In this document: piece by piece, positions 7,562 through 64,000 of the stretch | Position numbering within the stretch: position 1 is the stretch's first letter | Layout of the letters: each line of letters starts with the position of its first letter | DNA from: Lepidurus packardi | Lineage: Eukaryota > Arthropoda > Branchiopoda > Notostraca > Triopsidae | DNA: 64,000 nt | Reading direction: 5' to 3' | Assembly (NCBI GenBank): GCA_023053545.1 | Contig: JAKZAN010000001.1 | Span: forward strand, 1,508,565-1,572,564 | The notes under the pieces: generated by a model | What the model was told of the DNA's origin: nothing | Database searches by the model: none | The model's input: only the letters and a program-made list of their open reading frames with translations | Program-made: the position numbers and the translations under genes

Positions 7562-9657
7562 TCAACGAAAGCGCTTAGCATCATCTTTGTGTTGCTTGCC
7601 TTTGGACTTGATTGCATAAGTATCACGATGAGACGAGGATGAAGTACTGCTAGTACTGGGCTCGGTCAAGTCCCAATACCGCGGCAAGGTAATCATCTTC
7701 TTAACTGAGCGTGGTTTTGTTTCAGCCTCTTCAGAAGACGAAGACGAGCCTTCGGGCATATGCCTGCGCTTCTTGGGTACTGGCGACCTGGACGGTGCTT
7801 TCCGACTCTTACTGAGTTTTGAAGATTTCTCTTTGACTTCTTTACTCTTAACCTTCTCCACTTTCTCGCTCTTCTTATCTACCGGTCGCTCGGAGGGGGG
7901 AGTAAACTTGGGTCGCCAGGCTTTGCCTCGATGGTCGGATGCTTCTGGTGAAGTACTCCTAGGCTTTAAAGGCTTCTTGCCCCTTTTACCTCTTCGCTCT
8001 TCGGATAGTTCTCGGGGTTGGTCCTTCTGTTTGCTTCTGCAACGTGAACGCATCGAAGAGGAAGAAGAAATGGAGGACGAAGCTTCGGTAACGCGGGAAG
8101 TGGATGCTGAAGGCACGGATTGAGGCTCGTTCGTGGCAGAGGATGTAGACGGCCAGGCTTCGGAACGAAACGGAGTTTCGCCGCTGAAAGCCTCGTCGGA
8201 ATCCGATAACGTGACCAGTTCCGGGGTTCGCTGCCGTTTCGACTTGAAAATATCAATAACTTCGATATCCTCCGAGTCCGCATCCGAGTCCAGCGCAGGT
8301 GTGCTCCTCCGCGAGGGTGAAAACCTTTGAAGACCGCTAGGACCAGGTTGTGGCGACTGTGTCGTGACTTTGGCAATGCGAGGGGTGAAACCGGCGCCAG
8401 CGCTACTCGTTTCTGGGATTTGTGTAACGTCCCGGTTCGGACACGGAGGAGAATGGTGGTCATTTAAGAACCTGAGTATATTCGAAAAATCCATCTCGGC
8501 AATGGTGGGTTCGCGATGTGGGTTGAAACTAGGGTTCATGGTACGAAAAAGTCGCGAGCGCATGTCAGGACCGGTGGGAGGTGTATGGCGACCCATAAAG
8601 ACAATATCGCTGTCCTCGGAATCCGAAGTATCGTTTAAATGTACTTCTGGTTGCCGGGGCGGATTCTCAAATGCAGGGAGCGTGCCATGCGGGCCATAGT
8701 CCACTTCAGTGTCGTAGCCGATCATGTCTAGGGGTGAGCGTGCGAAATTATAGAACTCATGGACGAAATGGTCAGTATAATGGCCTAAGTAAGGCCGTAC
8801 CGCTGCAGCAAATTGTGGACTGGTCATCGAATAGTTGGTGATGAGATCCATGACGGTCTGCAATACATGGCTCACGTCCCAGGTACGGCGACGTCGAGGT
8901 TGCCTGCCAATCAAGGCATTGAGCTCGCGGTTGAGCCAAGGTATGAGGCGATGGGTGACGGCTGGGTTTTCGCGGTAGAAACCAGGATCGGTCTCGCGGT
9001 ACCGGCCGGTAATATCGGCCAGTGGACGGGCCCAGATGTCGTCCTCATAAATGCTGCGGCGAAATTCGCTAGTGGCGGTGCGACGTCGAGGCTGTCTGTA
9101 AGGGTAGCTGGGAATGATGTTGGCGTCCACTGCTCGGCGAAATGCTAGTTCGCGTCTTCGTTCAGGGGTTAACGTGGAACGGTACCGGAAACGACTGAGT
9201 AAATCGGCGTTAGGTACTTCCGGAACGTTGCGGACATGGTACTCGTCAAATTCCTGCAATGACCGGACGTTGTGGATGATTGACTTGAATTTTTGCTTAC
9301 ATAACGGACATTCTGCCTTTACCTATGAGAAATACCATTAAACGCGTGACGGTGAGCTTGATTATATGTGTTTTTATTTTATTGTAGGCGTACTTTAGAC
9401 CATTCCAGAAGGCAGGCGAAACAAAATTGATGTAGGCAACTGTTGGTGTAGGATTTGTTTTCTAATTTGCCTAAACAAATGGCACAACATGCTTCTCCTG
9501 AGCTTCCATTGGAATTTGTAGAAGTTGTGGAAGTCGTACGTCTGCGTAGCTTGACAGCAGAAGAAGGCGAGCTTGATGGTTCTTGTATTTTTAAGTCGGG
9601 TGAACGAATTTCGGAGCTTGCCGTTGTAGGAGATGCCACATTTGTAGCCTCTGCCAT
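7562..9657 (-). CDS. Topors: Topors, RING-finger E3 ubiquitin/SUMO ligase
   Basis: Two exons on the minus strand: 9657-9394 (88 codons, from ATG) and 9322-7562 (586 codons and stop), joined at phase 0 (donor AAA|GTACGC, acceptor CTCATAG|GTAAAG), giving 674 aa. A C3HC4 RING lies at residues 58-96: C58, C61, C74, H76, C79, C82, C93, C96, with the Topors-typical CLHQFCFACLLEWSK and AECPLCKQKF. It is followed by the FRYRSTLT segment and a domain around HRLIPWLNRELNALIG and FVHEFYNFARSP, both characteristic of Topors. The C-terminal half is an RS/SR- and KR-rich, acidic-patch tail suiting a nuclear protein with SUMO-interaction motifs. Topors is an E3 for ubiquitin and SUMO, located in nuclear bodies and, in flies, linked to insulator complexes. 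It appears complete and intact; it converges on WNK and diverges from the secreted-protein gene. Confidence 0.93.
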
Positions 9658-10596
9658 TCTTCAATGTTTGGGCTCTACTGTTTGGTAAAAAAAAAAAGAT
9701 GAGAAGACTATAATTAGAAGATTGACGTTAAGCATACAGTAGTTTAAGCTCTGTACTCTACTTGCAGGCTGCACTATCTTTGACGATTTTAAAGAGGTAT
9801 AACACAAGACTTTCAGTTGTGGGATGCTGCATTTATGCAAGAGTTTATAAACAGTCTTCTAAGAAAGCAGTGCAATATTTTGTCGCGTTGTGCTGCCATC
9901 TAGTGTTCTACCATCTCAACCTTAAATAGAAGAGATTTTGTACGTCGATCCTGGAAGCGGGGACTATTTTTGACACATCTCGATTTTGAATCCCTAAGGG
10001 CGCTAAACGAGACGTATGACTCGGGGTGTTTTAAGAATGGTTCCGTCTAATTTTCAGTCCTACCAGTTAGGGCGACTTGCGCAAACGCACCCGAATATCC
10101 TTAATTTACATACTCAGTGCTGTGCTGTTAAGGATTTGTGTCAGTCATTACGGTAGTCTCTAGTGCGTTAAGCTTTTGTATTAACTCGATGAAAATTGAG
10201 AGCTATAGTAATGCGTGTATTTTCTTTTTATATGTGGGGTCATTGGAGTTGAAGCCCTGCAAGGTATCGCCCTCTAAGTTGAAGAAATCCTAGCAATGAC
10301 TTGATTACAAAGAAAAACAAATTCGCGTTTCGTAGTTTTTTTCCCCCACTAAAATGGCTTCGTCAGCCAGAGTTCCATTTTTGTGATCTGGCTATGGAAA
10401 TGGGTAAGTATCCTTTCTTAATCAGCCCATTAAATACGTAGATCCTTGCTTTGACATTGTATACATTTCGAGTATACATTTCCGAGTCCAATAATCGATC
10501 GTGGTTCTCTTCACTCTTGCTAGGAAGTAGCTAAGCACAGACCAAGTGCTACCGAGTGTTACCGCATTTACAGTGCTTGGGCTCGCAGCTTCTAAC
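9658..10596. promoter_or_regulatory. Divergent 5' region between Topors and a small secreted-protein gene
   Basis: Both neighbouring genes start here and read outward, so these 939 bases must hold two promoters or one shared promoter. A CTCF-like motif (minus strand, ACTAGATGGCAGC) is at 9891-9907. I found no convincing TATA box. No ORF in the region has coding character. Confidence 0.5.
9891..9907 (-). promoter_or_regulatory. CTCF-like motif in divergent promoter region
   Basis: The minus strand reads ACACTAGATGGCAGC, a near-consensus CTCF core. It lies midway between the Topors and secreted-protein starts. Binding is inferred only from the motif. Confidence 0.35.
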
Positions 10597-44570: not shown

Positions 44571-46911
44571 TGAGCCGACCTAAGGCCCCACCACGAACCA
44601 CGGTGGCAACTACACTACCTTCAATAACAGAACCACTTCGAGAACGTAAGTCACCGAATGGAATGTTCAGATCCCTTGATTTTTTTTTTCCAAATTTAGT
44701 CGAATTTCTGACAACTTTTCTTTACAATAATTCTTTTTTTTTTTTAACTAAAATGATGAATCTAAGAATGTAACGTTAACGAAGTTATGGACTTAAGGGC
44801 TCTAGACTAGAATTCTCTATTAAAATTATAGCACCCCCCAAGTTTTGAAAACTGAGCCATGAAAATAAACCTAATTTTTACAACTTTTACCTTTTTAGTG
44901 ACAATCGAGGAGAAGATCGACCTTATCACCAAAAACGTGACTGATCTTTCCTCCTTGAATGAGGATTTCCAGATGACAATTGGCTCCAACTTTAACTGGG
45001 AGGATCTCCTAAGCCCCGCCCCTTTGGGTATCGGCATTTTAGGCGATCTGATCCAGCATGTCCGATTTCCCGTTGAACGAAGTAGTCGCCGAGGTACATG
45101 ATGTACAAGTACATGATGTAGCCAGTTTAGTCCAAATTAGCAACGGTGACTACCACGCCTTCAGCAAAGCCAGTACGAATATGGACTAAATTCTTCTCTA
45201 CGCGCTTACTGTCCACAGCTACATGAAAGACGCCACGGACCCTGCTAACGAAGAAACCAAGCTTATCACCAAATTCTTGCTCATCCCCCTGAAGCGCATC
45301 CAAGAATCGGCCGAAAAGAGATTGACGCTGTCTTTGGAAGTGGTCCAGGCATTCGATCACGTTATGAATCTCACTGGCGAAGTTCTGACGGCCGTCACAG
45401 CCACCAAAGGCTTGAAAGAGGTCCAGCTGGACGATGTGAGAAGAAATTGAATTGAGATTGAAATGAAATTGTTTTCTCTCGTAAAGAGTTTTCTACATAA
45501 AGAAAAGAAATTGCTTGACATTGTGGTCAACAATACGGCTACCATGTTGGAAGACATGAAAAAAAGAAAAGAATCGACTAGAGACATCTGTTGAGGAATC
45601 GCCGAACGATATCCTGAAAGCGATACGCGAAATGCCTTCGGGCTCGGATACAATTGGCATGGATATAGTTGAAGGATTGAGAGATATTGTTACTTTCCAG
45701 TTTGAACCTGCACATAACGGGAGGATTAGGAACCTCTGGCCCTTACGGAAGCACCTCCGATAACACCGCAAAGACCGTCAATCTCGAAGACGAATGCTTA
45801 AGTAACAACCACAAAATGTCTTGCACGTATTGGGAATTGCTGACCATCTGTAGAATTTGCAATCAGAAATTTCACGTCGACTGACCCAACGCAAAAAACA
45901 CAATTCAACGCCAAGAAAGATTTAAATATACTCTACAACATTGCAGAGAAAGCGGTAGGTTGCGGAAAGCTGGAAAGCTTGTGTGAAGCCGGGGACAGAT
46001 TCTGGAGAATCTGCAAGAATTACTCAAATCCAATGCATAGTTTAATGAAATAGATGCAGGTACTGAGAAGATCCAGGATTTGCTTACACAAGCGGAAGCT
46101 TTGAAAAATAAAGTCCAAGCCATTGATGTACCCTCTTCCAGCCTACCAAGTCCTTCGTGGTCCCACTTTGCTAAAACCGAAGCGACAAGATCATCGCATA
46201 AGTAGGTAATCAAGTTGACATGGCGCAAGAACGTTTTAGGATTAATCGTGAAAGCGCTGACAAAGCGAGAGATCGTATGGTTAAAATCAACAAGGAGTAT
46301 ATCGATGCACTGATGAGGATGCATGGAATACGAGCTTCAGCGAGATGAAGAAGCGGTCAAACTCTTGCAACTAGGGTTAGCTAATTTGGCGAAATTGAAG
46401 GAGCACTGGTCAAAGTTGGTCCGCTACTTCAAATCTGTCTGGAATATCGTAGAAGTGGTCATGAGTAGGAGTTTAGTCGACTTCCAAAGCTACATCAACG
46501 AAACCAGCACGGATTTGGATTTGCTGACAGCAGATTTCACATTGGAGATGATCTACGAATCGGCAGTGAAAGCTAGTCAGGCGTCGTGTTTCGTGCATAG
46601 TATGGCGGACACTGGTACCAAAGTTTCTAGCAAGTACATAATGCCAAATATTGCAAAACTGGACCAGCTGATTGCCTTTGTCTGCTAACACGAGCATTGA
46701 CGAGAAACGTAACGAACTGCTGGAATCCTGTACGCGCGATTCGGAAGAGATTGTTAATTTAATTATGCAGGACAAAAATGGACTGATTGGTCGGATTGAA
46801 AGACGAATGCAAAATATTCGGGACCACTACGCTTTCCTATTCAATCCAAAGGAATTAGGACAGCTTCAGTCTGAAAATTACATATTGGAAGAATCTCCTT
46901 CGATTGCTTGA
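44571..46911 (+). pseudogene. Multi-exon pseudogene of a large P-loop/coiled-coil family gene
   Basis: Protein-like sequence extends along the plus strand in changing frames. Exons 44571-44645, 44899-45093 and 45131 onward splice with matching phases (LRE-L-TIEEKIDLITKN; RRG-V-QISNGDYHAFS). Then come an in-frame TAA at 45187-45189, a stop after DDVRRN (about 45450), frameshifts near 45590, 46320 and 46675, and further stops near 45880-46025. A decayed Cys/His segment (CTYWELLTICRICNQKFH) and a C-terminal region (LKEHWSKLVRYFKSVWNIVE; MIYESAVKASQASCFVHSM; VSSKYIMPNIAKLDQLI) resemble large uncharacterised proteins that I remember as multicopy in fish and aquatic invertebrates, often with an N-terminal GTPase-like domain. 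That N-terminal part is not seen here. Retained introns argue against a retrocopy. Assembly errors are an alternative to true decay, but so many lesions make this unlikely. Confidence 0.75.
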
Positions 46912-47438: not shown

Positions 47439-50400
47439 CTAGAGTGTAGTAAGTTTGGCAGCTTCTTCAGTACTGTCAGGGCTGATATGATATGCTTCTT
47501 CTGAATCGTGCATAGCATTCTGACGTATATTGCTCGCATAATACACGCATGGCTTTCGCGGATGATGCGGTGTCGTCACGGGTGCTCCTGTAGCACCATA
47601 GGCGTTCTTGTTGATATCGTATGCCGATGAATGATGGGCCACGCCCTGTACTTGCTGCTCACCAGCATGGCTATAGTACGGCGTATTGCCGTCGTACTGA
47701 CTATGATATGCAAAAGCACCAGCATAACTACTCCCAGGGCTGACAGCGATATGCTGGTTATTGTACAGCAGGTTAGTATGTGCATTACTGCGCTGAATTA
47801 TGCCTACGCCATACGGATCTTCAGTGAGCTCCTTCTTTTGAGTAAATGCAGTGTGATTCGTCCTATAAGGAAAGGATTGTGGATGTCCCAACATTCCAAG
47901 TGAAGCTGACGCTGCCGCCGAGCACTCAACCAAAGAACCATTAGGCAATCCTGATGAGCTGTTGGCGTGATTTACGTTTACGGCGGAAGTTGAGGTGGTG
48001 TTTGGGGAAGTTCCTGAATGCTGTCCGTCCCCCGAATGACAGGCCGTTTCTTGAATACTGGTCGGTGTACGGACCAGCGGAGGCGACGGTGACAAGGAGC
48101 TGGAAGTTACAGCCGAGCAAGATGAAGGCGAACTCGGCGATTTCTCACATAATACACCGCCACTGCCAATCCCCGGTTTGCTCTTCGTTTCCTTTTTGTA
48201 TTTCATACGCCGGTTCTGGAACCAAATTTTGATCTGACGTTCCGTTAAGCTTAATACCGCAGCCATTTCCAGTCTCCGGGGTCGACACAGATAACGATTG
48301 AAGTGAAATTCCTTTTCCAATTCCACCAACTGAGCGCTTGTATACGCAGTACGGGCACGTTTTGCTGGTTGTTCTAAAACCAAGAAATAACCCATTAGAA
48401 TCCAGATTGTTTTCAAACTGAAATTATTCCGTTTATTATTCATTGTATTCCTTTTTCATTTTATTCATTATTTTTTTCATTTTTCCGTTTATTATTCCTT
48501 TTTCGTTTATTATTCCATTCAACATTAATCAGCTAACAAAGCTAAAGTGAAAAAGTATCCGTTATCTCCCTCGGCAGGATTAAATCTTTTAATGAATTAT
48601 GAATACCTGACAATTTTTCCCAGCGAATAAACAACTACTTTCTTAAGGCTCCCGTATACCTTAGCTTATTGATGGGAAAGAGTCACAGATGGCACTGATG
48701 TTTGTTATTGTTATGCGAAAGCCTTGCGTAAGAAAGTACGAGAAGAAATATATAATTAATTGCCGGCAAAAATAAAAAAAACGTCCCAAATCAAGTCATC
48801 AAACTTTCGGAACAATATTTCTCGAAAAGGATTGTCAAACAAAAACAAACAAACAAAAACAGAAGTTTTCTTTGATTAGCAGCTCGTGCACAATCAAAGG
48901 ACAGGTTTTTAGGTAACGTATTTCTCATAGTTGCAAATTTCATTTTCATATTTCTAATTTATTACTCATTTTAAAAATGCTGCATTGATTGTGCCCTACC
49001 TGTTAGCAAGCTCAAGATTACTGTCAAAGAATTTTTTCATAAAGTTCACCGGTTTTCTCAAAAAGTTGTTCCGAAATTCCCCAGCCTAACCGCCTATACC
49101 GAGCTAAGGTATACGGGAGCCTTAAATGCTTACATGTTTAACGAATTTTCTAGGAAGCATCATCCTTCGAAGTAGTGACCTTTCCTCACCCAGAAAAAGA
49201 CAAAATGCATTCTTTAGTTGGAAAGGGAAAAAACGCGGCTCGCCAAAGTCGAGCGGTGGCCCAGTCTCGAGGGATTGCACGAGTCCTACCGACCACAAGC
49301 GGCACAGAAAAGAGAAGACGAGAAAAGATATGCCAACCTGTCGCCATTTTGCCCCCCCATGACTTTTGCTGGGACTCGTCTTAAAGTGCTTTGCGCAAAA
49401 TTCCAACCCTTTTGTAAGAGAAAACTCTACGAAATCCTCCTCTCCTCCGGTTCGATTCATTTAATACATTAAATGTATACTGTGTTTAACTCAAGCCTAA
49501 ATACATTGCCAGATGTGATTAACAGAAGATTCGCTTGCTCCCATTTACGCATTCAAGCATGTCCAAATCAAGCTTCAACCCTTTCTCACCACCCCTCATC
49601 CATTTGACTTTCTTTCTAACTTCTTTTGCAGACCCTGACACATGCAATTTGCCCCGCTAACCAGCAGCGCTTCTGTCTATCCTGCACACCCATTCCCCGT
49701 TACAGAAGCTTTAAAGTCCCTTCAGAAATAAGTTTGTAAGCGTTTGTAAAATTCAAATAAAAAATTCAAAAAATTCAAATAAAAAGCGTTGTAAAATTCA
49801 ATGCATAACACAAAGTTAACTATAGTGAACGGGTGTCCTTCAGAAATAAGTTTGTAAGCGTTTGTAAAATTCAAATAAAAAATTCAAATAAAAAAGCGTT
49901 TGTAAAATTCAATGCATAACACAAAGTTAACTATAGTTAACGGGTGTCCATGGACTGAAAAATATATTCGTATGGCAAAGCTACGACACGAACGCGCGTT
50001 ATGTTTCTTCTTAAATCGTGTTTCATGAGAGATATTACTGTTCAAATAGAGCTATGTCTAGAAATCTTACCTGGACTATCAGAGAGGCCAATGTTTATTA
50101 AGGTCGGCGATAACTGCGCAGGTATAGGCACTGTTGACTGAGCGACATTGGTTGTTCCTGTTGATCTATAATTGCCTGATCCAATTTGCTGTTGTTGTGG
50201 AGTCACGGATGGCGTAGGTGACACGTATTGTTGTGTTGCTTTAGAGCTGCTTGATTTGCAAGGTAATGAAGATCTCATCCAGGGGTAAACTTCTTTAGAA
50301 TTGCCATAATAACTGCTCTCCTCGGCTCCATGTTGTTGTTGTTGTTGTGAGTAGGAATACTGGGGATTATTATGCTGGAGCGATTGTTGTGGCAATTGGC

Positions 50401-50767
50401 TCAATCCTGATGGCGAGTTCGGATTTGGTCGTATCGGGAGTTGAGCTGCGTTAAAATCGCTAGTCGGGTACGTTTGTTGAGCACAAGGCAAACGATATTG
50501 CTGCTCGTAGTCCGTTTCAGCGTAGTAACTGTTCCCGATCTCGGGACTCTCGTAACCGTGTTGGCCGTAAATTGCGGGATTTTGGGTCTGATGAGGGTAG
50601 TATCCGTGATTATGCGGGTAATAGGCTGGCACTGAGTCAGCGGCGTGCTGCTGGAGCCCTTGTTGTTGCGTCTGATGCACTTGGAACATGGTAGCTTTGT
50701 GATTGTGATGTTGGGGGGTCAAGTCGTGGTGCCCCGGATTGACCTCGGTATGGAAAGAATCTGACAT
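47439..50767 (-). CDS. Hox3: Hox3 homeodomain transcription factor
   Basis: Two exons on the minus strand: 50767-50071 and 48373-47439, spliced at CCAG|GTAAGA and GGTTTTAG|AACAAC (phase 1), giving 543 aa. The chosen ATG (MSDSFHTEV) has the context GCGGCCATGT; the frame stays open upstream, but with low-complexity codons unlike a Hox N-terminus. Exon 1 is Gln/His/Tyr-rich and carries the hexapeptide YPWM at residues 161-164 (plus 50276-50287), which contacts Extradenticle/PBC. The homeodomain spans about residues 236-295: [18 protein letters not shown], then [14 protein letters not shown], then [18 protein letters not shown], with Q50 and N51. This is Hox3-type, unlike proboscipedia, which has RRLRTAYTNTQ and RMKHKR. 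The C-terminal tail is Ser- and Tyr-rich. It acts in the nucleus in axial patterning; in insects the orthologue became zen/bicoid. It appears intact. Confidence 0.93.
48647..49121. mobile_element. Intact TTAA-flanked inverted-repeat element (piggyBac-like MITE), 475 bp
   Basis: The ends are perfect 20-bp inverted repeats: GGCTCCCGTATACCTTAGCT at 48647-48666 and its inverse at 49102-49121. TTAA stands directly on both sides (48643-48646 and 49122-49125), the target-site duplication of the piggyBac superfamily. There is no transposase ORF, so it must have been mobilised in trans. Related copies in this window are at 268-554, 15852-16186 and 16191-16827. It lies inside the Hox3 intron. Confidence 0.85.
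49717..49950. repeat. Direct duplication of a ~120-bp AT-rich segment in the Hox3 intron
   Basis: The segment beginning CCTTCAGAAATAAGTTTGTA and ending AACTATAGTGAACGGGTGTCC (about 49717-49838) is repeated nearly exactly at about 49837-49950. Differences are in the number of AAATAAAAAATTC motifs and one G/T change in the TAGT(G/T)AACGGG part. Confidence 0.85.
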
Positions 50768-52819
50768 GGCCGCGATGGATGAGGAAGGGTGTGTTTGCTT
50801 CTTTTTTGGTTCCACGAAGGAAAATCGACGACTACAAAGAATAAGGAATATCAGCGAAAAAGTAAAAACTCGTGGGGTTCTTTTTTGGGGGGGTCCTCCT
50901 CTCCAAAAAAGAATCAAAAACCGCAAAGAAACTGAAAACGAAACATACTGACGCACTCTTGAGGGCGGGTTCCTGCCTAATTAGCGGTAAAATTACCTAG
51001 AAAAAGACGCCAAGTGCCCAAGCGCAAGGGGGTATTTTGGCCCAGGCAAGGAATCTGCCGAAGATATCCGTACACTTCTCAAGGGACTCGGCGGAAGATT
51101 TCTGTCGGGCTACTTTTTTGAATCTTAATCCTTCGCAAAGCAAGGTCCAGGATTTCTTGGGTTTTCGGGCGTCTAAAAAGTCGGATCGAGACTGGAGGCA
51201 CCGAAAGGATCGGCGTTTGGTCTGATCTGTAAGCCAAATCTGGGAGCAACAAAAAAAAGACAGAAAAAATGGTCAAAAGATCCGCACTAACACAGGCAAA
51301 ACATTGGACAGGAATTTGACTGTCTCGCAAAACGAATGAAGGAAAATGGGCCAGATTGAGTCATTTGAATGGCAAGTACATCGTTGCTTTTACGGGGGAG
51401 GATCAGTTGGTTTTAAGAAACCTTTTATCGCTCCCGGGGTTAGAGTACAAGTTGCCGTGATGAGCATCGAGTCTTCGACACTTGTCACGCACATTGCTGC
51501 CTGCTTATTTACAATCCCCACAACCATTATTAAACGTCGCCTTTTTCCAAACTTGGGCAAGACGCGACTTAACCGTCATAAACGAAGGCAAGGAGGTGGA
51601 ACTTTCTGGGCGCCAACGAAAATAATGCCCATAAGAGAAAACGTCGCTGCCAATGTATCAGTTAAGCTAAACTGTTAAGAAACTCAGTTTCCAGATTCAC
51701 GGTCCGGAGCAGACACAGCGGAAGACGCTCATTATGATACACACAGCCGATTCCGACCGAAATGACTTACTGCACGCCACAGCCAATAATTCCAATGATT
51801 TCGACCTTGTCATGCAACAAAACCCCCCCAAACCGAGACTTTTACCTCCATCCCATCTCCCAGCAAGAAAGCCGATTACAAAGGCCCTAAACTTTTTATT
51901 TTTTATTATTTTTGGGGCTGAGAAGTCCTCCAATGTCCTACCTAATTGATGGATAAGGCTTCAAACTGATATAGGAAATTGTATCAAATTGCCCCTGAAC
52001 GGGTTAAAATTTGCGAATTTTTAAGCTAGTACCAGGGGTTTTCCCAAGGGTGTTGACATTTTGACAAGTTTTCATTCTACACCTCGTGCCCTAGTAGCAA
52101 TTGTCGGGGTATCTACACTACACGGAAGGAAAGGAAGGGAGGAAAGGGTGGTTTTGAAATAGAAACCCTTTGATCCCGACCACTTTGCTCAATCGGGGTT
52201 CGCAGACCTCATTGTCTTGGGTGGCTTGCTACTGCATGATGAACGAGCCTTCAGCGTCACAGATACGCACTTTTAGGTCGCTTTTAGATCTCTACCTACT
52301 ACTTTGCCTTTTCCATCAATTGCAGCCGTTTAGCCCCTCTATTTCAACCTAAGAATCCTTCTTGCGACACATCGTTGTCGAATGGATAAAGTACGTTTAC
52401 TAGTATGATTAACAAAAAAACTTACCATTTTTACTTCCGTTTTTACAGCCAACAGAAGGCAGAGGAGGTCTAAGAGACCAGAAACGTAAAGGTGAATGTT
52501 GGTTTCGAATGACTAATTGTAAGCAGGAGTATAAAGGGTACGGTAGGTTTTCTATCATGTGTGAGCTAGCGGCTCTCACATTCACCAAACGGACACATCC
52601 CATCCACAATTTGAAGGTCCAGAAAAGTCAGAAGCTGAAAACGATCCCAGATGTTTTAATGCTGCCAACTTTGCAGGTACTTCAGTGAGATAAAAAGGGG
52701 AGAAAAGTCGCAAAAGAGCTTGCTAAGTTTGCTATAAAAACGTCCGCTTGTCAACAAGGATTATCTTGGCGCGGCGTAACTCCAACGTTAGAAAACTTAT
52801 TTATTGGCGAGACTGACTG

Positions 52820-52836
52820 CAGGCGCCATCTAGCGG
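52820..52836 (-). promoter_or_regulatory. CTCF-like motif upstream of Hox3
   Basis: The minus strand reads CACCGCTAGATGGCGCCTG, the best match in the window to the CTCF core CCGCTAGATGGCGC. It lies about 2 kb upstream of the Hox3 start codon, a location where insulators have been described in Hox clusters. Binding is not shown by sequence alone. Confidence 0.4.
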
Positions 52837-55800
52837 TGTAATTAGCAATGTTTTGGGTCACGCCCAAAATAATAAAAATACCAGATGCAAATCATTGCAA
52901 TGTGACCCAACAGTCATTAATAGAAACCATGTACTCAGCATCTCTCAGCTTCTTTTCACTTTTGGCCACCTAAATTCTAAAGTTACAAGGACATATAGCA
53001 AGAACCTAGAGCCTGAACTTAATTGTTGACGCCTGGCGGGTTAATTTGGCGAGTTTAAACTTCCAAGAATGGCAGCAATGTCAGAACGGACAGGAAATGC
53101 CAGCTTTGAAAAAACAAAAAGGGGAAATTCTGCCTCTGGATTGAATTCATGGGGAGTTCTTGGGTTGGGTTTGTAATGAGGCAAGATGGTAGGGATTGAT
53201 AAATGATCCTGGCCCAGACTCAACTCTTGCAACGTAAAAGCGCTGGGGCTGTCCAATCCAAGGTTGGGAAACCCCTTCCCTTTCCCTTATACACAATACA
53301 CATATAACCCACATAACATCTCGCAAAGACGCAAAAGTTCCATACCCAGCCAGGTTGCATTATGAGCCAGTTCGCATCCAGCAATTAAGCCAATCATCTC
53401 CACGGACTCCCAGCGTGCATTCAAGTCACCGACGACCGCCTTTACACACGTTATAGTGTGCCGATTGTTTGCGATGAGGGAACTCGAAGACAAAAGGAAA
53501 AGTAACTCTCGGGGTCTTAGCATAGTTCTACTTTAGATTAGTTGGTCGTTAGTGTCAACGTGGAAAGCAAGTCTTAGCTTCTGCCATGATAAACGACGTT
53601 CTTCCAGGACAGCCTGGAATTCTCCCCCTTTTCTTTTCCGTTTCTTTTGCGTTAGGCGTTTTCGGGGTTTTTCGATCATTGCCACACGTGCCAGTTACAT
53701 ATATGTATATTTATATAAAAATAACACGCTCCCTAGAAGCACTCCCAACTCTCCAAGTAAGCCTAATAGTAGTCGAACACGAACTAATCAGAGTGACTCA
53801 GCACGAAATCTTTGCAAACTAATTCTAAATCTCAATTTTTCACATTAGAATGGTCGTATAATGGTATAATTCTTACCTTTTCAACTCCCAGAGCTGAAAG
53901 CGTAAGAGTCAAGATCTGTCAAAGCATAGAGAGCGAGTTATTTTGGTTTTGAAGGTACAAGATAAGACCATAACTTAAATATCATGAGACAATGACAGAA
54001 AAACTCGGTGAAATTATGTGACTTGCCAAGAGAAATTATATTGGTGTAATGCCAGGCATAGCAAAAGCAATAGCCTCGGCGTATAGCCTGTCAAGGGAGA
54101 GCAGGCGGAAACTTGGCAGACAAAATTAATGATCTGTTTGGGACAGGGTTTTCGGGGGGCGAGGGTGGCTCAAATTCTGCCCAGTGTTAACCCTGCTGCA
54201 TGCAAAGCTTTCGCACAATTGCAACAATGGATAACGCCTGGAACCCAACGTAGTTTCTTCCCAAACGTTTTCAAAGGCCAAACGATAAAAACAAAAACGA
54301 TAAAAAAAGGTTTGACGATAAACACAAATAACATGTTTGAAACCATTTATATCAATTTTCTTACCAGGCTGGGTTACAAGAACTCCCAGAAAAACGGGCC
54401 TTAAACATATAGGTACGTTTCGAGAGCCCACCAAACCTGAGTAAATTCGTCCTTTCTCGTGTAACCAGAAAAAGCCTAATCTAGGTCATTAATCTTACGC
54501 TTCGTAATTGGCCCCAGCCCCAAACAAGCGTCGTCCACATTCTTCAACCTCACGACGCTCGTTCCTTAACCGCAAATGGCATACGTATTCCATATCCCTC
54601 CCAAGATTTTAGAGAATACCCAAAGATTGTCCTCGCAGAATACAAGTTACATTTCTTTTCATTAGTTTTTTCCAAACCTCCGTCTTGTCTCCTAGTTATT
54701 ATCTATATTATATATCCATAAAAAAAAAATCCCGCAGAGAAAAACCCTCCAGGCCCTTTTAGCTTGTGATGGGAATAAAGTCAGACTTAGCAGGGCCAAG
54801 GCAAGGCGGGCGGCGATGCTCCTGTCGGCTTTAAGATTAATGATCTTCTATATAGCACCACTCCCTAAGCCACCCCCCCGCCCGTCTTCTCCCCGGGACT
54901 AATACCACCCCCTCCTCCCCACCTTATTCCATCACCAACACCCCTAGACACAAACATACACGTATATGCCTCGATTGTGAGGAACTCGGCCTATTTTTTT
55001 TTCCAAATTAAAATACAAAACACCTCAGGCTTTCTACCCAGCATTTCTATCAACAGTCGAAAGACTCGGAAGCGAGCTAATCAATAATTCAGATAATTTC
55101 CCCTTATACCCATTATAAATGTAGCTTGTTATAATCCTGGCTAAGAAACGCAGGATTCGTCTCGTTAAAACCCTCTGCATGTCTTTCCAGCTGAAACAAA
55201 AAAGCCAAACAGGATTCCTGCAGAAACCGCTTTCCAAGTTTTACATACTTTCGTTGTACAACTTAAATACCCCCCTTTCCTTTCCTTTAAGCGAACGAAT
55301 GGTTTTTCCCATATGTGTAAGTATACGTGTGTTGGTGTTGTGTGGTTCGAGTCTCTCGGTGCGCCAACGGGAAACTTGGAAGACTTGGAAGATTTGGAAG
55401 CCAATTTTTTAAACTAGTAAATAGCTAAAAGAGCTTTTTGGCCCTCCATTGGGACCCATAGCTAATTGGAGCTTCTGCATTACATCTGTGTCTGTGTCTC
55501 TCTTACTTGGCTTGGCCGTATTTTCCCAAACGACTTTATATGCCTTGTGGGCAGCATAGAGCTTCTTACACAATGAGCCAAAAAGAGTTTGCTTTTAAGA
55601 GTCACGCCGAGCCATTTTTGCATTGTTACCAGTTTTTGGCATTGCGGTGTCTCGCATGCTGGCAAAAGAGGACGCGAAACAACTCTTGAGGGGAGAGAGC
55701 TTTTTGGTAAAGTGAGCGTCTAGTAACTGTGTGAGTACTTTTCGGGATGCTTGGTTTTCTTCAAGGTGAAAAAGCCATGGCATAAAAGGGACCCCCATTT

Positions 55801-56254
55801 TACCTGGAAGTACACAGGTAAAAGCTTCATGCGAGTACCCTGGAGGGCGTTTTTACCTCCCGAAAGGTATGCATGCATGCTTGCATTATATGTGACGAGC
55901 TGGGATGGGGGATAAATACCCGGAAAAAAGAATGCCTTAAAAGAAAAGCCAGGGAAAAGATAACAAAATCTAGAGAGAGAAAGAGAGAAACCGCCGCCAT
56001 AAGCATCGCTTGGGAAGAAGCTGCCGATACCTTTAACGAAAAACCTTTTTTCCCTTTTAGTTCCCCTCGCGGGCTCCTTGGCAAGGTGCACAACACAAAC
56101 CGCTTATTATTTTCTCATTTGGACGCTGTACACGACGCACCTTTTCGTCCGCCGCAATCAGAATAATTTTCCCAGCGAAGACAACGTTTCCCTTCAAATT
56201 TTCCCCGTCTCCTATCGTGTCTCGTTCTTTTTACTTCTGTCCGAATATCTACCT

Positions 56255-56294
56255 ATATATCAATCTATCTATATAGATAGATAGATAGATAGAT
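56255..56294. repeat. (TAGA)n / (TCTA)n microsatellite with inverted halves
   Basis: CAATCTATCTATATAGATAG is followed by further AGATAGAT repeats, so a (TCTA)n run meets a (TAGA)n run and could fold on itself. No function is inferred. Confidence 0.85.
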
Positions 56295-57782
56295 CCATGT
56301 TATGCTAGACTGTTCTACCGTCGTTCGCCTGCTCGCCTATATAGACTCGCACTTTTTTCGAACGTTCTTCTGTACAAGTCCTTCGCTGGCAAAGTAAGAC
56401 TTGTTTCTCAGAGTTTGCTTTTCTAGCTCACCGTTCTGGGCTTTAAAAGACGCCATTTTGCATAGGTGAATCACAGAAGGTGAACGTGTTAGTAGAAACC
56501 GCTGTGCATGGGAAGCTGGCTGATGGTTGTCAAAAGGTCGCTCACGAAGACGACCTGCTGGGGGACGCATGCAATCTCGGGTAAGACAGACATAAGATTA
56601 ACCAGTTCCTTTTTTTTTGTTGTGTGGCTTCTTTTTAGAACATGTGATGCCCTTTCCTTTTTGTTGGGCTCTCCACATTGTACACAAGTCCTGAGTGTTA
56701 AAGAGCCCTGTAGGCATGGGTAAAAACACACACCGAGTCATGAAATTTTTTTTTTGTTTAAAAAAAAAGAAAGACAGAAAGTGGGATTGGCAAGTTCTCT
56801 TGTATAAGCTCGGTACAAGCCCCGTTTCCTTTAAGCATTGTTAAGGTGTGCTCTGCAGGTAGATCCTAGCTGCCACCCTCATTATCGTCATGAGGACCAC
56901 CATCATCATCAACAGTTATAAAGACCAGGAGAGACAATCTAAGAGACCGGGAGCGAAGAAAACCAGTGTGCTGAGGATATTGCGGCGTTGTATATATGTA
57001 TATATAGCTAGCTATCCTATACACGTATCCCGGGTTTTGGCTGCTGCAGGCCATTGTTGTTGGCCAAGGATACTTAAGTCCGGGCACCGAAAAACGTGAA
57101 GCACATAAAAGAGCCGGAGAAGTGAGTGTGCAGTGCGGCCGTGCTGCATGCAGGTAATTTCCAGGTATTGTAACGTCAAGCACCTGCAACTGCAACCCAA
57201 GTGCCATTGAGCATCCAGCTGGGAAACACGTTGGTGGTGTGCGCGGTGTCTCTCTTTGGATCCGAAGATTGTCTATTAACTGATCCTATTTATGGTTCGG
57301 TATATTTACAGGTAAATCATCTTTCAAATCGATTACTTTAATTTCAAATCGATTACTTTACCTTTGAAAAGCTATCCTTTGAAAGTCGCGATGCTTCCAT
57401 TTAATTATCGGTTTGAAAATTTCGGATGGCATTATTGTTTGTTTTTTTTCTTAGGAGGGGATGTTTCCTGGTGTGGCAGATTAGTTCGAAAACCTGGTTT
57501 GCGAAGTCAACATCCAATGGATCATTAATACAGAAGGGGTTTCGGTGCAGAAGGAAGAACTCTTTTCTCTCCCACGCATCTCTGGTAATACTTAAGTGTG
57601 CGGCACAGCGAGGGCAGCAGTTTCTAACATAGCTGGAGACCTAATTGGCAATTTCGCACTGGGATAACGGTTTTCCTTTGAAGGGCGTTGGAAGACACAA
57701 ACAAGCCTTAAGGAGTTTCCAAGTTAGTTGATAGATTTTCGGATGGAACTTTACTCTATGGGGGGAAACAATTGGCCGCTTC

Positions 57783-57856
57783 GTAATCTACCCTGTGGAT
57801 CCGGGCTTTTGTAGAATTTAGCCATCAGAAGCTCGTCTCTACAGGTATCTTACGGA
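57783..57856 (+). ncRNA. mir-993: mir-993 precursor microRNA hairpin
   Basis: The 5' arm at 57788-57810 starts CTACCCTGTGGATCCGGGC, a mir-10-family arm (TACCCTGT) with the CCGGGCTTTT end typical of miR-993-5p. The 3' arm at 57828-57850 starts GAAGCTCGTCTCTACAGG and, from memory, equals arthropod miR-993-3p over its whole length. The arms pair over about 20 positions with a bulged C in ACC(C)TGT, a two-base internal mismatch and a 17-base loop (57811-57827), as expected for a Drosha/Dicer substrate. mir-993 is an arthropod mir-10 paralogue located in the Hox cluster between Hox3 and Dfd, which fits a position 7 kb upstream of Hox3. Unusually, the mature arms read on the strand opposite to Hox3. 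Confidence 0.93.
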
Positions 57857-60800
57857 AACAATGCCGAATGCGACGAACATAGGTTTGCTTTCAAACCCCC
57901 CTAATTTGGTTATAGTTTTTTGTGTCGTTTTTTTCAGTTCAATTTTAAGATTCTCGAGAATGGGAAAACGCGATAGCTATGCCAAGTATTTTAATAGGTT
58001 TTTATGCCGCTTTGGGAGGGAATACATAAAAAAAAAAAAAAGTGCATTTGCATGTGTGTGCGAGTTTAGTTGCGGGTTCGGGGCTTGCAAAGGAAAACAG
58101 GTTTGGGAAATCCCACGTTCCCAAAGTGGCTGGGGCTCCCAAGCTCTTTTCGAAAGGCCCCAGACTCGGGAAGAAAAAGGGTTAAAAGTCCATGGCGAGT
58201 TCAATTTTAATAGGTTGACACATTATCAGGCGAAGGGAATTGATTGTAATCTGGATGATGATGCCAAATAAAACGAGTTCTGTCCTCTTTTGAACAGGAA
58301 ACTTGCAATGAAACAAGAAAACGAAAGGTGTATTCCATTTTTTCCTGGTTTCGAGTCATATTATTAATAATGGAACCCTGCCATGCAGAAAAAGATCATA
58401 ACTGAAAAAAATTCATAAACGGTTTTCGGTGAAGGTCCTGTTTTTTTTTAATTTTATTTTTTTTAAAGAAGAAGAAAAAAAGAAAACTTGCAGTGGCAGG
58501 TGGGATCACGATCCTTCACGTTCAACTACAGGCTTTTCTCATTCATTACTCCAGTTCACACATTAATGACATCTACTCCGCCGTCCCTCATTATTTCCCA
58601 CTGGGGAATTTGCGCCGTGAAACCGAAACAGTAGCCCGTGAATGTAAATCAGTGTTCCAATCTTATATGCCCTAACTTGGAGTTGCCGTTTCCCTTTGCA
58701 TTTCTCTTTCCTTTTTTTTTTTTTGCAGACCCTTGTCAGATCGCAGGGGACGTTTCAATAGTATGGTATTAGCTTACTTAATAATACACAGTGTTGTCTT
58801 AATCGTCGTGCGTGATGATTTAAATCGAAACCATAAATCACTTGTTTTGTACCACAAGTGCACTTTCAATCCCCAAAAAGGTAAGTCGCCGGTATACTTT
58901 GGGCTCACCAAAACTTACATAAGTTATCTATAACTTATATAATCTATTTGGTCCATTTCAAATGCATTTAGTTGCTTTCAAAAAAATTTTGTTGCTTTCA
59001 AAATGATGAAGCAGGACAAGATTGATATTAAAGCATAATAATAATAATAAGTCAAATGAAAAACATATTTGAATCCTTTTTTCCTCCTCATATCATTGCG
59101 GTTTTCGCCACTCACTTTTAATAAACTTGTAATAAACTTTTAATAAACATAACGACAAACAAACCTAGTATTAAATGTACACTTACATACATATAGATTA
59201 CTTAATAATGTCCTAGATTCCAAACGGATTTCAAAACTTAGGCCAAGATAACGCATTATGAACCAATGATGAGTCTCCTGACAATCTTACGAGTCGCTAA
59301 TTAATTACAGAAAAATTATAGATATTTTAAGGTAGCCTTTGTCAACGAAGTCATTCTGAACTGTTTGACCTGAGCTTAGACCATATTGGTTATAGCTGGT
59401 ACTGTATATTTATGACGCAAGGTAGACAAATAAGTAGACGAATAAGTGATTCCGTTAAGTTTGTGCTGGAAAGTTCTCATGCGCTGAAGACAACATTTCA
59501 CGACTACAAAAATCTCTTAAAATTTGTCGTTTCCATTTTTGGGCCAAAGTTTGCCTATTAGTTCTCAGTTTTCCTGGAAAATCCGTATGCAGTATACTGC
59601 ATGAAAGCAAATAAAGGAATCTTCAAACGAACGGGAAACTTCCTCATAAAAACGACATGACATCAAACACAGCTAGATTAGAATGAAATAGAATTCGGCC
59701 TAGATTAAAAAGATCATAGCTCCTATCCTAGATACGCAAATCGCATTATGAATAACTTAAAAGCACCGAATTTCTGTAATTTGAGTGGCTTGAAAACTTG
59801 AGTTGGTTTGGAAATGATTCCCCACTCCCGTTTTGAATCTAAGAAAACTTCCTAATTCTAATTCTCAAATGCCTAATTCTAATTCTCAAAATTCTCAAAC
59901 TCCTAATTCTTCTTTCACCTAATTATAATTCTTCTAATTCTCCTAATTCTTCTTGCCCTAATTCGTTTTCGACAACATAAACTCAACAGCCGTCGACTTC
60001 CAACATGTATCAAACAGACTTATTCCTTTTTTAGTGCTTTAACACACAGCTCAACCACTCTAGCGGAAGAAAGATGCAAAAGAACCAAGAACCCGTTCAT
60101 CTATAGGAAGATTCCAGACAAAAAGATCCACCAATATGCTTAAAGCTTCATTTGGCCTGATTCTCTTCTCTTCAATCCATAGAGATCATAGGGCTGGGTC
60201 GCGCCGTCATGTGCCTGACGGATTATCTCGGTCGGCGTGATGGAGTGGGCAGCTTACATTGGTGGCTCCTCGACACTCGACACTAGGCTCTACCCCAAAG
60301 GAACGTTCATCTCGGCTAGATACCACCATCTCTCCCCTTCTCGCCCTTCTTTCCCTCACGCATCACCACCCCTACTCATTGCAACTGTCACTACTTTTGA
60401 CGGATCACAACCATAATCTGACAGCTAGCATCAGAAATGAAATGCTTGGCTTACATTGGCTGAAATTTCCTTCCTATCTCTATTCTCCATATTCTCCGCT
60501 CATTCCGATTACTCTCCTTAGTATCCCCCCGAGACATTTGTAAAGTTGACCGTTCACAAAACGCTAGACAATAACTAACAATCACACACAGGATAAATAC
60601 AGTGAACCACATGTAAACCACATGAAATATTGCCTAATGGAAATCTAAAACTTAATTCCCAGGGCGGAAGTGGAGGTAATCAATGCCATCAGTAACCAAG
60701 ACTGCTGTAACAGAAATGGTAGGAAACGAGCACTCTAACTTTCCCAATGACACTAATATTACCTGGTGGTACATAAAATCCTTCCTTGGCGAGATTTCTC

Positions 60801-63597
60801 TTTTTGTTCCGTGAGTTTTAACTCCACATTGGCACTGGGATACGGAAGGTAGAGGGAGTTAGAGGAAAACTGGAAACTAGAGGAACTTGAAAACTTGGGC
60901 GACAGAAATTGTCTTGGGATTGACTTGGTAGCGCATGTGATGTCTCTATAAGTCTGTCGAGCTGCCTGGGCCTCTCGTCAGTCAAAACTCATCTCGTGAG
61001 TTTGACTTTGGGAAAAAGATGCTGGTTTGCTCTCGCACACAAGTCCAAGTTGGACGCCTTTTTCATCAGGGTGCCAAAAAGTCGCGACCGAAGACGTCTT
61101 ACTTGATGAGTTGGGGTGGTGGGTGTCATCCCACCCCCCCTTTCCTCCCTCTCGTTGGTGTAGGGCTAGGTTTTTGTTGGTCTTTGGGTTGTGTAATGCG
61201 GTCATGTTGCTGCTCATCTTGTGTCTTGTTTCTCACACAACCAGGAGTCGCAGACTTTGCCCTGCTTTGGCCCCCAAAGTTTTGCAGCCAAAAAGCATCT
61301 TCTTCCTCGTCAAAAAGGCAAAAAGACTCCAAGTCAAAAGCAGCCAAAGGAACCTTGTCCTTTGTCACCTCCCCATGCTAGCCAAACCATCCCAAGAACG
61401 TCCATTGACAAGTGAGAAATGAATGTGTCACGCTACCAGAAAAACCTGCACACAAACATATGTGTGTTTCTCATGTATCAATATTCCCATTCCCACCCCT
61501 GATTTCGAGACTTAATAACAAGTTCTTACATTTGAGTTACAATCAGTCTGCTTACATTAGAGGGATTTGGAACTTTTTCAGTTCATTTGAGGGATTTTTT
61601 GAAATTCTACGACCTTGAATTTCAATATTCTTCCGCCCGAAAAGAAAGAGCAAAAAAATACGGAAATAACCAAATTAAAAGAATAGTGTAGTCAAAAGAA
61701 ACAAAGCAAGAAGAAATAGTTCAAGCTCAGTAGCACTGGGTGTTACTTTTGGTAAGGGCCACAGGAGCGGCGTCGGCAGCGTCGGTATCATCCATCACTG
61801 TCGACGTCGCTTCACTGCTCGGATGACAGGTCCGAGTTTTTCTATAAGGGAGAGCCAGCAAGCTTTTTGCTATTGGCATGGCATGGTTTTCGATTATAGA
61901 AGCAGCAGCCAAACTGAAAAGCTTGGATTTTTTCTTGCCTTTTTTTCTTTCGAACTCTTGTTGCCGCTCCCCAAGGATTTAATTAGAAAATGTAGATCCA
62001 CTCGCAAAAGCACATATGAGGAAGTTTGACAAATCCCCTTTTCTTGAAAACCCGTTTCGATCATTCTAAATTCCACCGACAATATTGAAATACTGGAAGC
62101 TTTTGCCATTTGTAGTTGAGAAAATCAAAGCGAAATTGAAAGAAAATGAATGATGGGGCCCTTTGTCATGTTTGTAACAGGTGCAAAAGAATAAGGCATA
62201 GGGGTTGTCCTTGATCGGTAAACTAATCAGCTTTTCTTTGACAACCATGCGGGATGTTATAAGTACTTGTGTAACTGTTAGATGGCAAACACATCTTGTA
62301 TGGCATCTTGCTTGGAATCTTGTATGGCATTAGGATAATAAATAAGAATTGTAAATAAGAATTGTAAGTTAGAGGTACACTTAATCTTGGAGGTAATTCC
62401 CTATTGCAATTTCGTAATTATAAATAAATTACTCGTAACATTATAAATACATTCTGTAAACGGCGTTTCAAATCAGAAATTGTAAAATCACGGTGAAATT
62501 ACAGTGGACGACAATTGAGGTACATTTTGGAAAGTGCGAAACGTTGCCGAAGGATATGTACATTCTAGGTTTAGGTACTGGCAAGAGATATTGGTTAGGG
62601 TAGAAAGGGGGGAAGGACGACATAATAAAAAAATTAGGGCGATTGTTATATGGGGTATTCGGCTTTGATAAATTCACAAGATTACCGGGACAAGCTTTAT
62701 CCATTTTGGCCGGGGAAATGATAAAGACTTGGAACCAGGTTTTGGTTCCTGTCTGTTTCGGTCTTTTCAAGTCCTGGTGTGCACAAATCTGCAAAATGCG
62801 AAGGCCTTGTGTACGATTTCAGAGGAGAGTATAGACCATCATTTATCATTCTGCCTAGGCCTCAAGGAGCAGAAGCATCAGCAGCGAAAACCCCATTTTG
62901 AAAGGTTTATGGCTTTCCCCTGCTTCAAAAAGATGTTTAAAACAAAAACGGGGTGAAAATTTGCAACGAACGAAACATTTTACCATGCCCCGGAAAGGTC
63001 AGAGACCAAGAGAAAAGGTCACGGAAACTTTTCCACATTTTGAAAGGATTTTGCAAGCTGGAGCAGAGCTAAAACGGGCTACAATTTTGCGCACGTCATC
63101 GAAAGTAAGAAGTAACCATGTCGCCATCCTGTACAATCCATATCCAAGTATCCGAGCAATGTTAGGGTACAAAGGCAAAAGTGATTAGATCAAACATACT
63201 TCAGTTTGCATTCTCTCTATAGCGTTTTAGAATAAAATTGGCCCTACCTTTTGGTCCAGAAAACCATCGAAAATTCCCTCGCGCCATGACAGATGCCGTT
63301 CTAATTAATTTTTCCATAGTTCTCAATTATGTTGACTATAACCACACATTCTCAAACGTCCTAGTCAATAGATTGTAGTATCAAACAAAACTCCAGCGTA
63401 TAAAGAGAATAATACTCATCTTAGGTCTTATTTATCATGCAATACGGTAGTCAAACCAAGAGTCATGTAACCACGAATTGAGTGTTGGCTTCAAACTACC
63501 GCTGCAAGGCGGCGCCACGTGACTAGTACAACGCACTAATCATAAGTTGAACGTCTGTTCTGACAAATGTGTTAATGTTGATCGTTTCTTGTCACAG
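57857..63597. other. Non-coding intergenic DNA
   Basis: No protein gene is supported in these 5.7 kb. Low-complexity parts include an ATA run at 59036-59050, CTAATTCTAATTCTC-type repeats at about 59854-59960, and T/A runs near 58440-58480. A weak CTCF-like motif (GTTAGATGGCAAAC) is at 62276-62290. Confidence 0.45.
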
Positions 63598-63663
63598 GGA
63601 AACTTTTATCAGCACCCGTGCCTGGGTTTTATTGAAGTTGACACACTGCCTAGAATAAAACGG
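63598..63663 (+). CDS. Candidate isolated internal exon, 22 codons
   Basis: TTTCTTGTCACAG|GGAAAC and AAACGG|GTAAGA form well-shaped splice sites around 66 bases that are open in one frame only (GNFYQHPCLGFIEVDTLPR then IKR) at phase 0 on both sides. No partner exon was found in the window and the peptide is not recognised. Chance occurrence of such a pair in 64 kb is quite possible. Confidence 0.2.
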
Positions 63664-64000
63664 GTAAGATCTCAAATTTATAATCGAAAGCACCATCCAT
63701 TCTATTTCCATCGGATTCAGAAGCTATAACCCCATGAAACGGCCGAGAGGGAAAGCGAGCAATAGCGTTAGTGTTCGAAGAGGCTTAATTCAATGCAAGT
63801 TTTTCTTTTGTCTTACTTTTCCTCCCTGGCTAGGCCTGCTCGGGGTGAATCTCCCCGAGGTCCAAGAGAACTAAAAGCTCCCGTGGCCACCATGGCGGGG
63901 TTCGGGTTTTGCTCCGTATAGTTTGAGAAGACGACGTTAAGAAAGAGAAGAAAACGAAACGTTGGGGGGACACTCTGTGATTAATGATGTTGGGAGAGAT

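Follow-up and report, generated by a model that had tools for sequence, protein, structure and literature searches.

The window, the whole 64-kb stretch of DNA analysed here (C1:1508565-1572564), contains Hox3 on its minus strand and a microRNA hairpin on its plus strand. The features on which the analysis rests are as follows, in window coordinates.

47439..48455, minus strand: Hox3 homeobox-containing 3' exon (PF00046, E 2e-22), given as a stop-to-stop frame
48192-48362, minus strand: Hox3 homeobox (C1:1556756-1556926; PF00046, homeodomain read)
50042..50980, minus strand: Hox3 5' exon region, an open stop-to-stop frame assigned by motif and position
57782..57855, plus strand: mir-993 precursor hairpin (RF00104, 50.7 bits; fold z -5.0; single match in genomic DNA)
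57789..57811, plus strand: predicted 5p mature arm TACCCTGTGGATCCGGGCTTTTG, from sequence and pairing map
57828..57850, plus strand: predicted 3p mature arm GAAGCTCGTCTCTACAGGTATCT, miR-993-type, from sequence and pairing map, resembling the aae-miR-993 quoted in PMC2797818

The true start of the Hox3 3' exon lies near a splice acceptor, placed by eye, just upstream of the homeobox. The 5' exon region (50042..50980) has no Pfam match, and the likely exon-1 ATG lies near 50767, in frame with a 10-residue motif. The hairpin is thus ~7.0 kb upstream of Hox3, in agreement with the 7 kb given in the first-pass annotation.

The hairpin at 57782-57855 is real and carries recognisable mature arms on the plus strand, because the Rfam match, the fold, the single genomic match and the pairing map all say so; it had previously been placed one base off, at 57783-57856. 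It is the sole gathering-level match in the window among 4227 Rfam families, scoring 50.7 bits against RF00104, the mir-10 model (gathering cut-off 47.5 bits; E 1.3e-9 in the window and 5.2e-10 in the whole-genome search), and it matches model positions 1-74 of 74 end to end, which places it in the mir-10 superfamily. Folding of 57770-57870 (101 nt) on both strands, as proposed earlier, gave -36.3 kcal/mol for the plus strand (z -4.99, 0 of 200 shuffles as good) and -31.8 kcal/mol for the minus strand (z -3.40, 1 of 200 shuffles as good), with the recognisable arms on the plus strand. A search of the genome (108.6 Mb, 344 contigs) with the hairpin DNA returned one match, the hairpin itself. 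In the pairing map, the 3' end of the predicted 5p arm overhangs the start of the 3p arm by 2 nt, and the 3' end of the predicted 3p arm overhangs by 3 nt as written, or by 2 nt if ended one base earlier. With arm ends that are predicted, the duplex is therefore of the microRNA type (~2-nt 3' overhangs), with 2 nt at one end and 2 or 3 nt at the other.

The window hairpin is the arthropod Hox-cluster microRNA mir-993, as the first-pass annotation had proposed, because its 3' arm is of the miR-993 type, distinct from mir-10, and because it lies between Hox3 and Dfd (Hox3 at C1 1556756, hairpin at 1566346, Dfd at 1577783). The arm GAAGCTCGTCTCTACAGGTATCT, which we take to be identical to fly miR-993-3p, is unlike the 3' arms of the mir-10, mir-100 and mir-125-like hairpins of the same genome. 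Aligned by eye with the aae-miR-993 sequence in PMC2797818, it shows 2 substitutions and 2 extra bases and otherwise agrees. The microRNA is named Mir-10-P4 in PMC12220506, and the locus is a conserved, known microRNA in one further genome. Genome-wide, three mir-10-family loci exceed the RF00104 cut-off (59 of 8103 candidates scored); they are given below with two neighbouring hairpins.

C1, window 57782-57855, plus strand: mir-993, above the cut-off
C1:1584374-1584446, minus strand: mir-10 (Mir-10-P1), above the cut-off, arm TACCCTGTAGATCCGAATTTGT, between Dfd and Scr
C5:9990286-9990363, minus strand: mir-100, above the cut-off, adjoining let-7, named by arms and neighbours
C5:9990106-9990183: let-7
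C5:9985249-9985315, minus strand: mir-125-like hairpin, 27.8 bits, below the cut-off, with a mir-125-like 5p arm

By its arms and neighbours, the C5 locus above the cut-off is mir-100 of the mir-100/let-7/mir-125 cluster. The mir-100, let-7 and mir-125-like hairpins lie on one strand (C5:9985249-9990363, minus), with ~4.8 kb from let-7 to the mir-125-like hairpin. The other mir-10-family candidates below the cut-off, among the 59 of 8103 scored, are two antisense echoes and one match on C2 (22.2 bits). In other DNA collections, miR-993 and miR-10 words had no match among viral contigs, and 20 bases of miR-993-3p had one match among genome contigs, in a Chloroflexi bin; the latter was set aside, as searching both strands of 257 billion bases would give ~0.5 matches by chance alone.

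The PF00046 search of the genome places eight Hox homeoboxes, from Hox3 to Abd-B, in their expected order on a single contig (C1), all on the minus strand. Hox names were assigned from homeodomain sequences; the search gave 101 genome matches, of which the best 30 of 101 were made into loci, with homeodomains printed for 27 of these 30. Beyond Hox3, the Hox loci and the further Hox microRNA are as follows.

C1 1577783, minus strand: Dfd homeobox
C1 1593870, minus strand: Scr homeobox
C1 1608427, minus strand: ftz homeobox
C1 1631597, minus strand: Antp homeobox
C1 1654579, minus strand: Ubx homeobox
C1 1709103, minus strand: abd-A homeobox
C1:1738753, plus strand for the iab-4 5p arm: mir-iab-4/iab-8
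C1 1837847, minus strand: Abd-B homeobox
C4:12600857, minus strand: lab-type homeodomain (PF00046)
C4:12623569, minus strand: pb-type homeodomain (PF00046)

The order on C1 is therefore Hox3, mir-993 (plus), Dfd, mir-10 (minus), Scr, ftz, Antp, Ubx, abd-A, iab-4 5p (plus) and Abd-B. The opposite orientation of mir-993 and Hox3 described earlier stands, with mir-993 on the plus strand and Hox3 and seven further Hox genes on the minus strand. The accompanying premise that Hox-cluster microRNAs usually follow the Hox strand holds in this genome for mir-10 and fails for mir-iab-4. Of the three Hox microRNA loci, one is thus on the Hox strand, while mir-iab-4 as well as mir-993 has an arm antisense to Hox genes. 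Since iab-4/iab-8 is transcribed from both strands according to PMC4862073 and PMC3290615, an antisense Hox microRNA alone is no mark of rearrangement.

In this assembly the Hox cluster is divided over two contigs: lab and pb are on C4 and Hox3 to Abd-B on C1, so the break falls between pb and Hox3. Of the two genes whose strands the first-pass annotation asked for, Dfd is on the minus strand, co-oriented with Hox3, and pb is on the minus strand of the other contig. There is no N in the 30 kb across lab and pb or in the next 10 kb, and no PF00046 match in the 47 kb downstream of Hox3 (window 1-47438), where an intron-split homeobox could escape the search. Splits or gaps have been published between lab and pb in Bombyx, Antp and Ubx in Drosophila, and pb and Dfd in Tetranychus (PMC4862073), and between Scr and miR-10 in Diaphorina (PMC9933525). 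In the present genome, mir-993 keeps its Hox-cluster place even where the assembled cluster breaks just beyond Hox3.

The window also holds other open frames. Pfam was run on 10 of the 110 listed frames, eight of them in the 47 kb downstream of Hox3, and one of these eight matched, with a RING-type zinc finger. This frame (window 7562-9660, minus strand; PF00097, E 5.1e-8) is followed by a long Ser/Arg-rich frame with no Pfam match, and the two together resemble a ubiquitin/SUMO ligase of the TOPORS type. Just downstream of Hox3, at window 44807-46826, long open frames overlap on both strands, and the plus-strand frame at 46317-46688 looks protein-coding and has no Pfam match.

The strand of mir-993 opposite the Hox genes is a correct observation and is probably the ordinary arrangement rather than a recent rearrangement, which is the weakest point of our interpretation. 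In arthropods, Hox clusters generally keep their gene order and orientation, the position of mir-993 is kept, and no convincing breakpoint repeat was found, and for these reasons we lean towards an ordinary strand. According to published accounts, the typical arthropod location of mir-993 is between Hox3 and Dfd (PMC4862073, PMC12220506), and Hox genes share one orientation with very few exceptions (PMC4862073). The passages of these two papers that give the position of mir-993 state no strand relative to the Hox genes, and the relevant passages of PMC7523956, PMC8062507, PMC5535294, PMC11331182, PMC3394115, PMC9933525, PMC7210998, PMC11603191, PMC3141673, PMC2838851 and PMC6828783 contain nothing on it. 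Mosquito strands in PMC2797818 are given on separate contigs without Hox genes; the Figure S4 legend of PMC3290615 describes hairpins drawn by strand on the likely ancestral arthropod cluster; both strands of Hox clusters are the subject of a review (PMC8293171), and a genome paper exists for Artemia (PMC11492255). A small inversion in this lineage may instead have flipped a segment containing mir-993, not Hox3, from the Hox strand to the opposite one, as the paralogue mir-10 sits on the Hox strand here and the cluster appears rearranged in the assembly, lab and pb being located on a different contig. However, the five inverted-repeat pairs in 51000-64000 yield no convincing breakpoints: repeats flanking the hairpin are A/T-rich only, including the pair that spans it (56746-56772 with 58452-58478, 81% complementary). 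This result counts only weakly against a flip, since no repeats of this kind would remain after an old inversion, and we regard the flip as unlikely. The local inversion of Hox3 suggested in the first-pass annotation draws on nothing except the opposite strands of Hox3 and mir-993, and it is contradicted by the strand and expected order that Hox3 has in common with the seven Hox genes that follow it along C1; because of this co-orientation, Hox3 is not inverted, and we give such an inversion practically no probability. An assembly error that placed a short segment inverted is hardly credible either, as the 64 kb contain no N and no sign supporting an error was found. If the strand of mir-993 did prove unusual, the locus would offer a natural experiment on whether a Hox microRNA has to be transcribed in the same direction as its neighbours.

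A further reading is transcription of the locus from both strands in the manner of iab-4/iab-8, with mir-993 from the plus strand and a second microRNA from the minus strand. Sense and antisense folds of stretches of 87-98 nt were compared for five hairpins of this genome.

mir-993: sense -33.3, antisense -32.0 kcal/mol, gap 1.3
mir-10: sense -40.3, antisense -28.5 kcal/mol, gap 11.8
mir-100: sense -34.5, antisense -28.9 kcal/mol, gap 5.6
mir-125-like: sense -38.1, antisense -36.1 kcal/mol, gap 2.0
let-7: sense -37.3, antisense -27.4 kcal/mol, gap 9.9

The antisense of mir-993 (94-nt fold) is nearly as stable as the sense, and no other hairpin of the five has so small a gap; iab-4, a hairpin of a known bidirectional type, also folds well on both strands (-36.5 and -38.9), and the large gaps of the mir-10 and let-7 controls weigh slightly in favour of two-strand use. 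However, a narrow gap is seen in the mir-125-like control as well, which means that stable folds on both strands do not prove two-strand use, and the mir-993 antisense is absent from the mir-10-family matches with E up to 1 (59 of 8103 scored), among which the antisense strands of mir-10 and mir-100 are listed. We consider a two-strand mir-993 distinctly improbable. A similarly low probability attaches to the broader proposal that mir-993 adds a second locus to the two-strand Hox microRNAs, or that it was flipped together with the break that separates lab and pb from Hox3, with a plus-strand transcript now running from near the Hox3 promoter towards Dfd.

This arthropod mir-993, at the site between Hox3 and Dfd where arthropods keep it, likely forms its own transcription unit opposite the Hox genes, on its normal strand. 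We infer its transcription, processing, arm choice and repression along known microRNA lines. As a separate unit on the strand opposite the Hox genes, the hairpin would be carried by a plus-strand Pol II primary transcript, from which Drosha and Dicer would release the 5p arm (seed ACCCUGU or UACCCUG, according to which base the arm starts with) and the 3p arm (seed AAGCUCG), and one or both arms may load into Argonaute and cause post-transcriptional mRNA repression. Both arms are read in a tick, where miR-993* is the more abundant (13,722 vs 689 in larvae; PMC3141673), and an arm skew is reported in Bombyx (PMC2838851). Reads of mir-993 were obtained from each of the three stages of Daphnia magna that were sequenced (PMC6828783), and its presence in the fly central nervous system is reported as data not shown (PMC3290615).

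Hox genes as putative targets of miR-993 find no support in a seed scan, as 7-mer sites for miR-993-5p (two starts) and 3p are absent from 10,670 nt downstream of the eight Hox genes, counting ~1.2-1.4 kb per gene from its first in-frame stop, which may miss UTR parts and later exons. This absence carries little weight because the scanned regions contain ~42% of all possible 7-mers. The same scan gave no site for miR-10-5p (both starts), one for miR-10-3p (abd-A), one for the mir-993 antisense 3p arm (Antp) and none for the antisense 5p arm.

The sequence of the 5' arm contains GGATCC, as noted in the first pass, and mir-10 of the same genome has AGATCC, that is, TGTGGATCC in mir-993 against TGTAGATCC in mir-10. 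The reported closeness to mir-10 is therefore correct, although minor, at one base apart. The changed base is hairpin position 16 and pairs G-U with a U of the 3p arm, where an A would give A-U; because the pair is kept as G-U, an unchanged 3p arm is compatible with the difference in the 5' arm.

Compared with known systems, the locus shares with arthropod mir-993 (Mir-10-P4) the position between Hox3 and Dfd, the miR-993-type 3p arm and a 5p arm with ACCCTGT. The hairpin presumably has CCGGGCTTTTG in common with fly mir-993, whose 5p arm has AGTTCC in place of the GGATCC found here, a difference of two bases if this fly sequence is right. The mir-10 of the same genome belongs to the same Rfam family, and its 5p arm shares TACCCTGT and GATCCG with mir-993; however, it has a different 3p arm and lies on the Hox strand between Dfd and Scr, whereas mir-993 is on the opposite strand. 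Like mir-993, mir-iab-4/iab-8 belongs to the Hox cluster and has an arm on the strand opposite the Hox genes, but its sequence is unrelated, and the bidirectional transcription described for it in the papers is putative at most for mir-993.
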